Of a stretch of DNA of 64,000 nt, positions 1 to 16,259 are shown one piece after another. How positions within the stretch are numbered: the stretch's first letter is position 1; every line of letters starts with the position of its first letter. Origin of the DNA: Nocardioides sp. CFH 31398 (GTDB taxonomy: Bacteria > Actinomycetota > Actinomycetes > Propionibacteriales > Nocardioidaceae). The notes below the pieces were generated by a model. It ran no database searches and was not told the origin of the DNA. It saw nothing but the letters and a program-made list of their open reading frames with translations. The DNA is taken from positions 248,001 through 312,000 of the forward strand of contig NZ_JAKUHT010000005.1 of assembly GCF_022436705.1 (NCBI RefSeq). The letters are read 5' to 3'. The translations under genes were made by a program, and so were the position numbers.

Positions 1-246
1 GTACTCCCCCGGCGTCCCCGAGATCGCGCCGCCGAAGACGAACGTGAACATGACGGTGAACATCACCGGGAACATCGTGACGTCGAACAGCTGCTCCGGG
101 ACGTGCTTGATCTTCAGCAGCGCCCGCCAGCCGAACGTCAGCGACGAGCTCAGCGGCCCGGCGGGCGCCGGGCGCTCGGAGGACCCGAGGGCGGCGAGGA
201 CCTTGTCGGTCTCGGTGCGGGGCGGGGCGGCCTGGACGGTGCTCAC
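1..246 (-). CDS. ABC-2 type exporter permease, DrrB-like (N-terminal part only)
   Basis: Partial gene: only the first 82 codons are inside the window and it continues past the left edge. The translation begins with a GTG that overlaps the stop of the upstream ATPase gene (GTGA). It shows a soluble leader of about 45 residues followed by [20 protein letters not shown] and a hydrophobic stretch, the usual entry of DrrB/ABC-2 permeases before their first membrane helix. With the adjacent DrrA-type ATPase it should form a membrane exporter for a hydrophobic compound or drug. The substrate cannot be told. The overlap implies translational coupling with the ATPase. Confidence 0.85.
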
Positions 247-1232
247 GCGACGGTCTCCTTCTGCTGGTCCTGGTGGTCCTGGTCGTCGGCCGGACGGCCG
301 GTGAGGGCGAGGAAGACCTCGTCCAGGCTGGGCTGGCCGAGCGCGTACTCGCTGATGCGGACGCCGTGGTCCCCGACGCGGGCGAGCGCCCCGGCCACCG
401 CCGTGGGGTCGTCGACCCGCATCGACAGCGACGCCGGGTCGGACCCGAGGTCGGCGGGGGCGCCGAGGCTCTCGGTGAGCAGGGCGGCGACCTCGGTGCG
501 GCGTGCCGGGTCGGCCACCCTCACCGTCAGGGCGCCGGAGCCGACCGAGGCCTTCAGCTCACCGCTGGTGCCCTCGGCGATGACGCGGCCGTGGTCGATG
601 ACCGAGATCCGGTCGGCGAGCTGGTCGGCCTCCTCGAGGTACTGGGTCGTCAGTAGGATCGTCGTCCCCGCCCCGACCAGCGCCCGCACGATCGCCCACA
701 CCTGGTTGCGGCTGCGGGGGTCCAGGCCCGTGGTGGGCTCGTCGAGGAACATCAGCTCGGGGCGGACGACGATGCTGCCGGCGATGTCGATGCGCCGTCG
801 CATGCCGCCCGAGTAGGCCTTGACCTGCTTGCCCGCCGAGGCGCTCAGGTCGAAGGCCTCGAGCAGCTCGGCGGCGCGGTCGCGGGCCGCCGTCCGCGAG
901 TAGCCGTACAGCCGCGCGAGGAGCACCAGGTTCTCGAAGCCGGTGAGGTCCTCGTCGAGGGAGGCGAACTGGCCCGTCATCGCGACCCGCGCCCGCACCT
1001 CGGGGGCCTCGCGGACGACGTCGTACCCGAGCACGCGGGCCTCGCCCGCGGTCGGGACCGTGAGCGTCGCCAGCATGCGGATCGTGGTGGTCTTGCCGGC
1101 GCCGTTGGGCCCCAGCACGCCGTGGATGCCGCCGGAACCGACCGCCAGGTCGACACCGTCCACGGCGCGGTTCTCCGTCTGTCCGGACCGGTAGACCTTC
1201 ACCAGGTCCGTGGTCTCGATGGCCAGGCTCAC
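243..1232 (-). CDS. ABC exporter ATP-binding protein, DrrA family
   Basis: Nucleotide-binding subunit (329 aa) of a DrrAB-like exporter. Walker [10 protein letters not shown] is near residues 41-49, the Q-loop follows, the signature SGGMRRR is near 141 and Walker [13 protein letters not shown] near 161. The C-terminal 80 residues match the DrrA extension (DUF4162-like). I chose the GTG at 1232 because an AGGAGG lies 5-10 bases upstream. The longer open frame to 1901 runs antisense to ppk1 and has no support. The stop overlaps the permease start, so the two are one operon. The family includes daunorubicin and other drug exporters, but no substrate can be assigned here. Confidence 0.9.
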
Positions 1233-4287: not shown

Positions 4288-5292
4288 ATGAGCGCCGAGC
4301 TCGCGATCGTCATCACGGTCGTCGTCGTCGCCCTGGTCTTCGACTACACCAACGGCTTCCACGACGCCGCCAACGCGATCGCCACCTCCGTCTCGACGCG
4401 CGCGCTGACGCCGCGCATCGCGCTGGCCATGGCCGCGGTCATGAACTTCCTCGGCGCGTTCCTGGGCCAGAAGGTCGCGAACACCGTGTCGGAGGTGATC
4501 AGCCCACCCCCCGACGCCCACGGCCTGGTGATCGTGCTCGCCGGCCTGCTCGGGGCGATCGCCTGGAACATGGTGACCTGGTACTTCGGCCTGCCCTCGT
4601 CGTCCTCGCACGCGCTGATCGGCGGCCTCGTGGGCTCCGCCGTCGCCGCCGGGACGGTCGTCAAGTGGGACACCGTGATCGACAAGGTCCTGATCCCCAT
4701 GATCTTCTCGCCGCTGTTCGCCTTCGCGGCCGGCGGCCTGGTGATGCTCGCGATCATGTGGATCTTCCGCCGCGCCAACCCCGGCCGCGCCAACCGCCGC
4801 TTCCGCGCCGCCCAGACCGTCTCCGCCGCGGCGATGGCCCTCGGCCACGGCCTGCAGGACGCCCAGAAGACGATGGGCGTGATCTTCCTGGCGCTGCTGA
4901 CCGGCGGGTACGCCTCCGCCGGCGACGACCTCCCCTTCTGGGTGATCTTCTCCGCGGCCGCCGCGATCTCGCTGGGCACCTGGTCGGGCGGCTGGCGCAT
5001 CATGCGCACCCTCGGCCGCCGCATCATCGACCTCGACCCCGCCCGCGGCTTCGCCGCCGAGTCCGTCGCCGCCTCGGTGCTGTACACCACGGCGTACGTC
5101 TACGAGGCCCCCATCTCCACCACCCACACCATCACCTCCGCGGTGATGGGCGTCGGCGCCACCAAGCGCCTGTCCGCCGTCCGCTGGGGCGTGGCCCGCT
5201 CGATCCTGACCGCCTGGGTCCTCACGTTCCCCGCCGCCGGCCTCGTCGCCGCCGGCTCCTACCTCGCGCTCTACGCCGCGCTGGGGATCTAG
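4288..5292 (+). CDS. pit: Low-affinity inorganic phosphate transporter, Pit/PiT family
   Basis: A 334-residue polytopic membrane protein that imports metal-phosphate (in bacteria usually H+ symport). It has the two PiT signature repeats: GFHDAANAIATSV near the N-terminus with GLPSSSSHALIGGL after it, and the second-half motif ALGHGLQDAQKTMG with APISTTHTITSAVMG. About ten hydrophobic segments are apparent. It follows the DUF47 gene in the same operon. Together with the high-affinity pst system downstream, the locus encodes both uptake modes. Confidence 0.95.
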   Translation: MSAELAIVITVVVVALVFDYTNGFHDAANAIATSVSTRALTPRIALAMAAVMNFLGAFLGQKVANTVSEVISPPPDAHGLVIVLAGLLGAIAWNMVTWYFGLPSSSSHALIGGLVGSAVAAGTVVKWDTVIDKVLIPMIFSPLFAFAAGGLVMLAIMWIFRRANPGRANRRFRAAQTVSAAAMALGHGLQDAQKTMGVIFLALLTGGYASAGDDLPFWVIFSAAAAISLGTWSGGWRIMRTLGRRIIDLDPARGFAAESVAASVLYTTAYVYEAPISTTHTITSAVMGVGATKRLSAVRWGVARSILTAWVLTFPAAGLVAAGSYLALYAALGI

Positions 5293-5337
5293 CGGCGCCG
5301 TTCCGCTCGTCGTCCACAGGCTCGGAGCGGCGATCCG

Positions 5338-5400
5338 GGTAGTCCCCTGACCTTCTGTCGCCGGCGGGCCCCTTTGACGACCGATGCTCAGGGGACTACC
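5338..5400. repeat. 63-nt palindromic element, copy 1
   Basis: Perfect 13-bp inverted arms GGTAGTCCCCTGA (5338-5350) and TCAGGGGACTACC (5388-5400) around a 37-nt centre. The centre carries a second short complementarity (GTCG with CGAC). A second copy, 6509-6571, has exactly the same length and lies in inverted orientation on the other side of the gene at 5440-6441. Aligned to the reverse complement of copy 2, 49 of 63 positions agree, including blocks inside the centre. It resembles REP/MITE-like elements more than a terminator, because the loop is long. No further copies were noticed in the window. Confidence 0.8.
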
Positions 5401-5439
5401 GCAAGAGAGGGCGTGACCTGTGGATCAGCGGCGACCGGG

Positions 5440-6441
5440 TCAGCTGGCGCGGCGATCGGCGACGGTGAGTCGGGGGTGCCAGCCGCGGGGCGGGGTGAGT
5501 GTCCATGCCCTGGCGGAGGGGTCCTCCCAGCGGGCCCGGGCCCGGGTCCGCCGCATGCGCGCCGCGAGGGCCTCGCGCGAGGCCACCTGCCCGGCGACGA
5601 CGGTGAACGTCTCGAGCCCGGCACCGCGCAGGTGGTCCTCCCGCCGGACGTCACGGCGGCGGTTGGTCGGTCCGAGATGCCAGGCGGCGCCGTCGTACTC
5701 ACCCGCCACGCCGGCGACGGGGTCCAGGAGGTCCGGGGTTCCCAGGTGCCGGCCGCGACGGTCGAACACCGGTTGGTTGCACAACACCATTGGTAGGTGG
5801 GCGTCGAGGAGCCAGACCAGTCGCATGCGGGTCTCGGGAGGGGACCAGGAGTTCTCGGAGATGAGCGGGAGAGCGTCGCGCACCCGCTGCACGCCGGTCC
5901 AGCCCGACAGGTACGGGAGGTAGGCGTCGATCTCGGAACGGGACACGAGGTTCGCGAACGCCGCCATGTCGGCCGCGACGATGCCCTCGCGGTCGCCCAC
6001 CGGGTAGCGCAGCTCGAAACAGACACTGCGTACCGGGACGGTCACCGGGACGCCGTCGACGACCACCACGTCGGCGGGACTGAGTCGCTCGGCGGAGAAC
6101 GCGTGGCCGGGGAACGGCCGGAGGTCGGCGTTCATGGCGAGAAGGACGACGTCCCGCTCCTCGCGCCCGTCCGGTGTGCGCCCGTCGAGCCAGCCGGCGC
6201 CCAGCCACCGCAGTCCGGCCCACCCGGTGATCGCCCCCCGCTCGGGCAACCGTGCGGCCGCCTCGACGATGCGTTGCTCGGGCGTGTGGGCGTCCACCCA
6301 CGACGGCACGTAGAGACCGGGCCCGCTGCGGCGCCACCCGGGACCCCGGGCCTTCCCCGGGGTCGGCCCCACCTCACCGGCAGGGTCGATCCGCACCGGC
6401 CACACCAAGCCGGGTCGCAGGTCGGAGGGCGCTGGTCGCAC
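5440..6441 (-). CDS. DUF559/AbiEi-like protein with PD-(D/E)XK nuclease-type C-terminus
   Basis: A 333-residue protein of the type annotated in actinobacteria as hypothetical, DUF559 or AbiEi-like. Residues about 50-100 look like a small DNA-binding/AbiEi-type region (THTPEQR-like start, ITGWAGLRWLGA). The C-terminal part has the Vsr/DUF559 pattern: SPPETRMRLVWLL (Glu203), PDLLDPVAGVAGEYDGAAWH (Asp239, Glu248, Asp250, His255) and RREDHLRGAGLETF (Glu268, Asp269). I infer a restriction-endonuclease-like fold; activity is unproven. The GTG at 6441 has no clear ribosome site, so the start is uncertain. The gene stands alone between two inverted 63-nt palindromic elements and separates pit from pstB, so it may be a small mobile cassette. 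Confidence 0.7.
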   Translation of the reverse strand: MRPAPSDLRPGLVWPVRIDPAGEVGPTPGKARGPGWRRSGPGLYVPSWVDAHTPEQRIVEAAARLPERGAITGWAGLRWLGAGWLDGRTPDGREERDVVLLAMNADLRPFPGHAFSAERLSPADVVVVDGVPVTVPVRSVCFELRYPVGDREGIVAADMAAFANLVSRSEIDAYLPYLSGWTGVQRVRDALPLISENSWSPPETRMRLVWLLDAHLPMVLCNQPVFDRRGRHLGTPDLLDPVAGVAGEYDGAAWHLGPTNRRRDVRREDHLRGAGLETFTVVAGQVASREALAARMRRTRARARWEDPSARAWTLTPPRGWHPRLTVADRRAS

Positions 6442-6508
6442 CCGGCGATCGTGGACCGATCAGCGGCTCGCGCGTGGTGGTCTGTCCTCAGGCCCTGAGG
6501 ACGGTGCG

Positions 6509-6571
6509 GGTAGTCCCCTGAGCAACGGTCGCCTCGAGGGGTCCGGGACGACAGAACCTCAGGGGACTACC
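6509..6571. repeat. 63-nt palindromic element, copy 2 (inverted relative to copy 1)
   Basis: Arms GGTAGTCCCCTGA (6509-6521) and TCAGGGGACTACC (6559-6571) are identical to those of 5338-5400. Here the pairing extends one base further on each side (6508/6572). The central 37 nt correspond to the reverse complement of the first copy, so the two elements face each other across the single gene they enclose. No obvious target duplication is visible outside the pair. Confidence 0.8.
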
Positions 6572-6619
6572 CGGCGGAGGGACTCCCGCTGTGGAGAACT
6601 CCGTCCTGGGACGGGCTGT

Positions 6620-7399
6620 TCAGCCGAAGCGGCCGGAGATGTACGCCTCGGTGGCGGGCTCGTCGGGGTTGGAGAAGACCTTCTTGGTCGGGTTGAACTC
6701 GACGAGCTGGCCGGGCTGGCCGGTGGCCTTGAGGTTGAAGAAGCCGGTCTCGTCGGAGACGCGCGCGGCCTGCTGCATGTTGTGGGTGACGATGACGATC
6801 GTGTAGTCGGACTTCAGCTCGTGGATGAGGTCCTCGATCGCGGACGTCGAGATCGGGTCGAGGGCGGAGCAGGGCTCGTCCATGAGGAGCACCTGGGGCT
6901 CGACGGCGATCGCGCGGGCGATGCACAGGCGCTGCTGCTGGCCGCCGGAGAGACCCATGCCGGGCTTGTTGAGGCGGTCCTTGACCTCGTTCCAGAGGTT
7001 GGCGCCCTTGAGGGAGCGCTCGACGATCGAGTCGGCCTCGGACTTCTTCATCCGGCGGGAGTTCAGGCGGTTGCCGGCGAGGACGTTGTCGTAGATCGAC
7101 ATCGTCGGGAACGGGTTCGGGCGCTGGAAGACCATGCCGATCTGGCGGCGTACGGCGACCGGGTCGATCGACGGGTCGTAGAGCGACTGCCCGTCGACGA
7201 CGACCTTGCCCTCCACGCGCGCGCCGGGGATCACCTCGTGCATGCGGTTCAGGGAGCGCAGGAAGGTCGACTTCCCGCAGCCCGACGGACCGATGAAGGC
7301 GGTGACCGAGCGGGCCTTGATCGTCATGTTGACGCCCTGCACGGCGAGGAAGTCCCCGTAGTAGATGTTCAGGTCGGAGACGTCGATGCTCTTGGCCAT
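6620..7399 (-). CDS. pstB: Phosphate ABC transporter ATP-binding protein PstB
   Basis: A 259-residue ATPase powering high-affinity phosphate import. Walker [11 protein letters not shown]-loop [15 protein letters not shown], signature [16 protein letters not shown] and Walker [14 protein letters not shown] are all intact, with the switch histidine in [22 protein letters not shown]-type wording is diagnostic for PstB. It is the last gene of pstSCAB on the minus strand, 48 bases after pstA. No phoU follows; the next feature is the 63-nt palindromic element. Confidence 0.97.
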
Positions 7400-15886: not shown

Positions 15887-15928
15887 GCTGTCATGTCACC
15901 GAGAGAGCCCCGACGCGCTCCACAGACC

Positions 15929-16006
15929 CCGAGTCGGCCCGAACGCCCACCTCAGCAACACCGAGTCGGCCCGAACGCTCACCTCAGCAACACCGAGTCG
16001 GCCCCA
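15929..16006. repeat. 32-bp tandem array A (2.4 units)
   Basis: Three cores CCGAGTCGGCCCGAACG start at 15929, 15961 and 15993 (the last truncated), separated by a 15-base segment that differs by one base between units. The core contains the odd palindrome GCCGAGTCGGC. The same core occurs in reverse complement in array B downstream with the same 32-bp period but a different intervening sequence. Confidence 0.85.
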
Positions 16007-16081
16007 GTTGCACGATCACCTGGCTTCGACGTGCTCGACGAGCATCGGGTGCCTGAGCAACCAGGGCCACCGGCACGCCCC

Positions 16082-16257
16082 GGCTCGGGCCGACTCGGCG
16101 TCCTACAGCGGCCCGTTCGGGCCGACTCGGCGTCGTACAGCGGCCCGTTCGGGCCGACTCGGCGTCGTACAGCGGCCCGTTCGGGCCGACTCGGCGTCGT
16201 ACAGCGGCCCGTTCGGGCCGACTCGGCGTCGTACAGCGGCCCGTTCGGGCCGACTCG
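16082..16257. repeat. 32-bp tandem array B (about 5.5 units), inverted relative to array A
   Basis: Cores CGTTCGGGCCGACTCGG begin at 16082 (degenerate), 16114, 16146, 16178, 16210 and 16242, exactly 32 bp apart. Intervening bases CGTCGTACAGCGGCC are identical except for one change in the first unit. The core is the reverse complement of the array A core. The array ends three bases before the soxG stop. Period 32 is not a multiple of three and no conserved reading frame is expected. Confidence 0.9.
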
Positions 16258-16259
16258 CG

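Follow-up and report, generated by a model that had tools for sequence, protein, structure and literature searches.

A predicted AbiEi/Vsr-like nuclease gene of Nocardioides flanked by matched 63-bp palindromes

Results

The pit–pstB locus

The stretch of DNA analysed here (the window) comprises 64,000 nucleotides from the 4.42 Mb, 49-contig genome of Nocardioides sp. CFH 31398 (G000). A gene encoding a predicted nuclease lies between pit and pstB and is flanked by two 63-nt palindromic elements (Table 1). As an earlier sequence-only reading of the window had described, both elements carry the same perfect 13-bp arm (GGTAGTCCCCTGA), and all four arm copies are exact; with up to two mismatches allowed, 1.3 arm matches are expected in the window, and four were reached in 6 of 100 shuffles. 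The reported alignment of the two elements in opposite orientation (49/63 positions) was reproduced, but 46/63 positions also agree in the same orientation, because each element is itself nearly palindromic (48/63 and 44/63), which leaves the notion that they face each other with little meaning. Both elements fold well as single strands. The gene is free-standing and intergenic between two intact sites, with no intron or intein and no interruption of its own target.

Table 1 Features of the window and solo palindromes elsewhere in the same genome
Feature	Position	Strand	Remarks
pit, phosphate transporter, left neighbour	4288-5292	plus	convergent with nuclease gene; named from translation
Outer box TCCACAG	5313-5319	plus	points to first palindrome
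Downstream 63-bp palindrome	5338-5400		half-sites 5338-5360 and 5378-5400; 17-bp centre 5361-5377
Outer box, other flank of first palindrome	5418-5424	minus	CTGTGGA on plus strand
Nuclease gene	5440-6396	minus	318 aa (P0001)
Longer ORF of nuclease gene	5440-6441	minus	333 aa
Nuclease protein domains (predicted fold)	residues 1-180; 183-290		AbiEi-like; Vsr-like nuclease
Upstream 63-bp palindrome	6509-6571		half-sites 6509-6531 and 6549-6571; 17-bp centre 6532-6548
Outer box beyond second palindrome	6589-6595	minus	CTGTGGA on plus strand; gene-side partner degenerate
pstB, right neighbour	6620-7399	minus	strand shared with nuclease gene; named from translation
Solo palindrome	C7:30022		
Solo palindrome	C15:52636		
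Solo palindrome	C35:173756		
Solo palindrome	C8:8052		one arm mismatch

Six copies of the palindrome were found in G000, comprising the flanking pair and four solo copies elsewhere in the genome. TCCACAG lies 17-18 nt outside the arm on one side of all six, and CTGTGGA on the other side of five. The sequence-only reading had passed over this outer box, as well as the second conserved block that extends each half-site to 23 bp. A tandem-repeat sequence is common to window positions 15925-16259 and to both flanks of the C8 solo (L043 4684-5251). Contigs C10 and C43 of this genome have several matches in mirrored order, two with equal scores, which suggests a duplicated assembly stretch.

Predicted fold and conserved residues of the protein

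On predicted fold, from which both assignments derive, the protein consists of an AbiEi-like domain followed by a Vsr/EDxHD-like nuclease domain. The sequence-only reading had called it DUF559/AbiEi-like; the second half of that name agrees with the predicted fold and with weak PADLOC matches to AbiEi, but DUF559 gave no Pfam match for the window protein or for 44 relatives likewise searched. The sole Pfam match was to MTES_1575, at a sub-threshold 16.3 bits versus a curated cut-off of 38.2, and neither this protein nor the 44 relatives matched the Pfam family of HUH tyrosine transposases (Transposase_17). Residues E188, D222, H240 and D249 are kept in 99-102 of 102 proteins, and we propose a mapping of these onto the EDxHD motif, made without a residue alignment. 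Position 233 is Q, L, M or D in place of E in 25/102 nuclease loci, where matched palindromes remain. An adjacent AbiEii/DUF1814 toxin gene is absent from the window, the neighbours being pit and pstB.

Association of the gene with matched palindromes

The exact arm pair was found in 1 of 59 genomes of the genus. A covariance model built on a 113-bp unit gave matches in 83/196 genomes (E 1e-3), with at most 18 candidates scored per genome, so that copy counts are lower bounds. At L080, L081, L082 and L095 (G173), palindrome matches lie ~1.2 kb apart with a homologue of the window protein exactly in between. The protein family itself was detected in 160/192 genus genomes (E <=1e-30); its 80 named loci are mostly from Nocardioides, with some from Marmoricola, Pimelobacter and metagenome-assembled genomes with other labels.

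Palindromes were present on both sides of the nuclease gene in 59 of the 73 testable loci (74 taken, one truncated), and in 57 of the 73 the arms were common to both sides. As a control, 316 shifted placements in 40 longer loci yielded 21 two-sided palindromes, none with common arms. Three loci (L080-L082) had been located via their palindromes and inflate the count, which is 54/70 without them; the remainder were picked by protein-search score or as second copies within a genome, independently of their flanks. A second test, using shorter arms and a register condition, was positive at 27/33, 32/40 and 61/76 loci versus 2/316 control placements; the first of these figures becomes 24/30 when L080-L082 are left out, and the last set consists of the 80 named loci taken and overlaps the loci of the first test. 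Inspection by eye shows matched palindromes with short arms at two loci that failed the strict test, L045 (G000) and L157. The pairing of palindromes with such genes anticipated by the sequence-only reading is thus borne out, and a random placement relative to these genes, which it had set against its own proposal, was checked and did not hold.

A class-wide search found the protein in 97/296 genomes (E 1e-8). Matched palindromes were flagged at seven of 20 further loci from this search, two of the 20 having no downstream sequence. Two flagged loci belong to the genus (L363, L365) and four to a further two genera within the same family (L355; L368, L373, L377), while the match at L372 is probably due to chance. 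Among eight more loci, L382 and L384, from the same two other genera, were matched, five were unmatched, and L383 is probably another chance match. In these 20 and 8 loci, homologues from other families were otherwise without matched palindromes, as were four distant paralogues in G000.

A probable resident gene with changing arms

The sequence-only reading had the block interrupting a phosphate island, a misleading description given that the nuclease gene lies no more than 1.5 kb from the 3' end of pstB in 22 of the best 30 pstB loci of the genus, and in 22/27 of those with full 3' room. Matched two-sided palindromes were read within the fetched stretch at 16 of these 22 loci. Arms are equal within a locus and unlike between loci, including GGTAGTCCCCTGA, GATAGTCCGTGACG, GATATCTGAGGACG, GTATCTAGGGACG, CGTCGTACCGGAC, GATACGACCCACC and others, and arm types differ even among loci at the orthologous pstB-side position. 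This variety at one orthologous position points to an old resident gene whose flanking sites change together, and the nuclease gene looks like a vertically inherited resident at pstB. At one locus (L190 in G071), three 50-bp palindromes stand in tandem 82-255 nt 3' of pstB, two of them with GATCCGTCATCCGTTC arms, and a nuclease gene was not detected in the fetched stretch, where other species carry one.

The ATCTGAGGACG arm type was found in 15/192 genomes, with none for a reversed-pattern control. The richest genomes hold 15, 9, 7, 7, 5 and 4 copies, counting flanking copies, and five of these six (G017, G022, G012, G113 and G030) encode a nuclease flanked by the ATCTGAGGACG arm; in the sixth, G096, one of two nuclease loci was read and carries another arm.

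Anatomy of the site

Across 204 palindromes from 102 loci, agreement between left and right halves is 0.68-0.99 at positions 1-23 and falls to 0.30-0.49 at positions 24-31. The search itself selects in part for the outer ~9 positions, a bias that touches neither the second block (18-23) nor its sharp edge. Outside the palindrome agreement is mostly ~0.3, rising to 0.5-0.6 in the two adjoining positions. The 63-mer is therefore organised as two 23-bp half-sites around a free 17-bp centre. Among 152 GTAGTC-type palindromes whose length was allowed to vary from 45 to 100, 119 measured exactly 63 bp and 142 measured 62-64 bp. Constant length combined with a free centre favours binding of a protein to double-stranded DNA and disfavours an RNA or single-strand hairpin.

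Of 408 flanks of 60 nt, 79 contain the heptamer TCCACAG directed toward the palindrome, versus 3.2 expected, the expectation being drawn from random locus stretches and not from intergenic ones. Its distances cluster at 3-8, 16-19, 26-30 and 38-41 nt, with a period of ~12 (strength 0.479 versus 0.378 for the 99.9% level of a uniform null). The half-agreement, heptamer, period and residue-conservation figures all include five doubtful rows of the 102 loci (L045, L298, L322, L324 and L133), whose palindromes appear to be due, in part or in whole, to chance. A box GT[CT]NTCCACAGG, aimed at the palindromes with helically clustered spacing and represented in the window by the three outer boxes of Table 1, resembles a DnaA box.

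Loci with more similar half-sites tend to have more similar AbiEi-like domains (Mantel r 0.377 with domain identity, p 0.001), whereas for identity of the nuclease domain the correlation is weak (r 0.121, p 0.010; 102 rows each); the permutations ignore common descent. In partial Mantel tests the AbiEi-like domain retains its correlation given the nuclease domain (0.376, p 0.001), and the nuclease domain given the AbiEi-like domain does not (-0.116, p 0.988). Omitting the five doubtful rows (n=97) gives 0.398 and 0.152, with partials of 0.382 for the AbiEi-like and -0.094 for the nuclease domain. At the level of sequence comparison, arm sequence follows the AbiEi-like domain and not the nuclease domain. 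AbiEi-family proteins are described as binding pairs of 23-bp inverted repeats (PMC7319586).

Solo copies and their turnover

A total of 52 solo palindromes were classified, of which three were repeats. Based on gene contexts from a simple codon-usage gene caller, 22 of the 49 distinct solos have convergent neighbours, 20 have tandem and seven divergent ones, and none lies within a called gene. The sister species G000 and G173 share the pit/pstB pair and two solos (L040/L254, and L042 with C2:730161 of G173), and differ in the presence of others. The G173 solo L091 is absent from G000, where 13 unaligned nucleotides stand in place of 148, with both flanks aligned; no target duplication is visible at this difference (L091/L255) between the two species, and the MITE-type arrangement to which the sequence-only reading had likened the block is, in the strict sense, not supported. 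For the G173 solos L094 and L093 both flanks also align to G000 with larger differences on both sides, and for L092 and L083 one flank only does. Conversely, G000 has L043 and G173 lacks it, with both flanks aligned but several hundred bp of tandem repeats going along with it, and for L041 a convincing orthologue was not found. A solo upstream of icmF was present in 2/30 genomes. In G173, palindromes of another type (GTAGTCCGTGACGT...TGCACC and related forms) adjoin CCCCTGA-type solos at L094, L083 and L093.

Discussion

Interpretation and alternatives

The reading we favour, with a probability of roughly 0.55, is that each palindrome is a pair of 23-bp sites bound by the AbiEi-like domain of the protein encoded between them, and that the Vsr-like domain cuts the 17-bp centre and thereby helps copies to spread to other intergenic places. 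Recognition by the AbiEi-like domain is likely and the best supported step, whereas cleavage and spreading by the nuclease are putative. If the predicted fold and the AbiEi operators known from the literature are a guide, two subunits would occupy one palindrome in inverted orientation, an arrangement whose geometry would hold two nuclease domains over the 17-bp centre. A cut or nick at the centre could then set off repair or copying, through which the two flanking sites would stay alike and a new solo might occasionally be seeded at another intergenic place. By analogy, the system is best read as a resident nuclease whose cognate binding site disperses slowly, a pair that would work in the manner of REP/RAYT with unrelated chemistry.

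The main rival is autoregulation, under which the palindromes would be operators only, the AbiEi-like domain repressing its own gene while the nuclease has other targets such as phage DNA; the solos would then be relics or a small regulon. Such a role is documented for AbiEi and Rv2827c, reported to autorepress via 23-bp inverted repeats (PMC7319586); each matched pair does place one palindrome upstream of the gene, and the co-variation with the site sits in the putative recognition domain. We nevertheless consider it the somewhat unlikely alternative, as the second palindrome follows the stop codon, a place where the gene should have no promoter, the predominantly convergent and tandem contexts of the solos fit promoters poorly, and the icmF-upstream solo is confined to two of 30 genomes.

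It is improbable that the palindromes are the ends or miniature derivatives of a conventional transposon, mobilised by a different enzyme and with the nuclease gene as cargo. Arms that follow the flanked protein's own AbiEi-like domain, the adjacency to pstB in 22 of 27 loci with full room, the lack of a target duplication at L091 and the failure of the protein to match any of 50,697 phage and 72,556 plasmid records (E 1e-3) all argue against this origin, notwithstanding the presence/absence differences between G000 and G173 and outer TCCACAG/CTGTGGA boxes that might serve as terminal repeats. Lower still is the probability we attach to transcription terminators or RNA hairpins insulating the gene, which the sequence-only reading had also thought unlikely. 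Although many solos lie between convergent genes and the window elements fold well single-stranded, the window hairpins are not followed by a T-run, total length is near-constant despite the free centre sequence, the arms are gene-specific, and no Rfam match was obtained up to E 1 in window positions 4801-7200.

Comparison with known systems

Likeness to AbiEi antitoxins lies tentatively in the predicted fold and, by sequence geometry, in the pairs of 23-bp inverted repeats described for them (PMC7319586). The Nocardioides protein differs in its fused nuclease domain and in a window without a neighbouring toxin gene, and its sites flank both sides of the gene, disperse, and have a 17-bp spacer versus the 3 or 13 bp given for AbiEi (PMC7319586). 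With Vsr and I-Bth0305I it shares the predicted fold of the catalytic domain and, by the proposed mapping, the conserved E, D, H and D. A review gives the target of the I-Bth0305I dimer as nearly 60 bp (PMC3943268). Here, however, there is no intron or intein, the gene does not interrupt its own target, and the front domain is AbiEi-like. Among MTES_1575-type and DUF559-type actinobacterial proteins, MTES_1575 is described as a novel restriction endonuclease domain of Vsr fold (PMC3710099), and the match of the window protein to it is weak and below the Pfam cut-off. Our literature searches returned no description of an AbiEi/Vsr-like nuclease paired with its own palindromes.

The REP/RAYT-like arrangement proposed by the sequence-only reading held up, in that paired flanking palindromes, gene-specific arms and solo copies all exist. 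REPtrons are described as a RAYT gene between two palindromic repeats, with cognate copies that are intergenic and mostly convergent or tandem; RAYT and repeat co-diversify, and orthologous RAYT genes keep their position (PMC2817692, PMC3733652, PMC8266576). The Nocardioides gene resembles these in its two flanking palindromes, dispersed cognate copies, co-diversification of enzyme and site, and kept gene place. RAYT, in contrast, is an HUH tyrosine transposase, whereas here an EDxHD-like nuclease with an AbiEi-like domain is predicted, and since the enzyme is unrelated the system does not belong to REP/RAYT. The sites differ as well: the Nocardioides site spans 63 bp with the geometry of a double-strand operator, and GTAG, which in REPs forms an unpaired head beside a short hairpin, falls within the paired arm and is missing in several arm types. 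REPs usually exceed 100 copies per genome, compared with six in G000 and at most 15 of the ATCTGAGGACG arm type among 192 genomes.

We tentatively propose, at slightly less than even odds, a second, independently evolved REP-like system, in which a 63-bp dyad belongs to an EDxHD nuclease with an AbiEi-type DNA-binding domain and is spread by it. The enzyme would be a natural paired-half-site nuclease, its specificity having evolved anew dozens of times within one bacterial family. If so, dozens of protein/site pairs could be read directly from genomes. Palindromic repeats that depend on a single enzyme have REP/RAYT as their model. A counterpart built on unrelated chemistry would show that arrangements of this kind arise repeatedly, and its double-strand site would open the spread of such repeats to direct tests. 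The ~100 naturally matched protein/site pairs, with their diverged 23-bp specificities, would also be a resource for working out the rules by which AbiEi-type domains recognise DNA.
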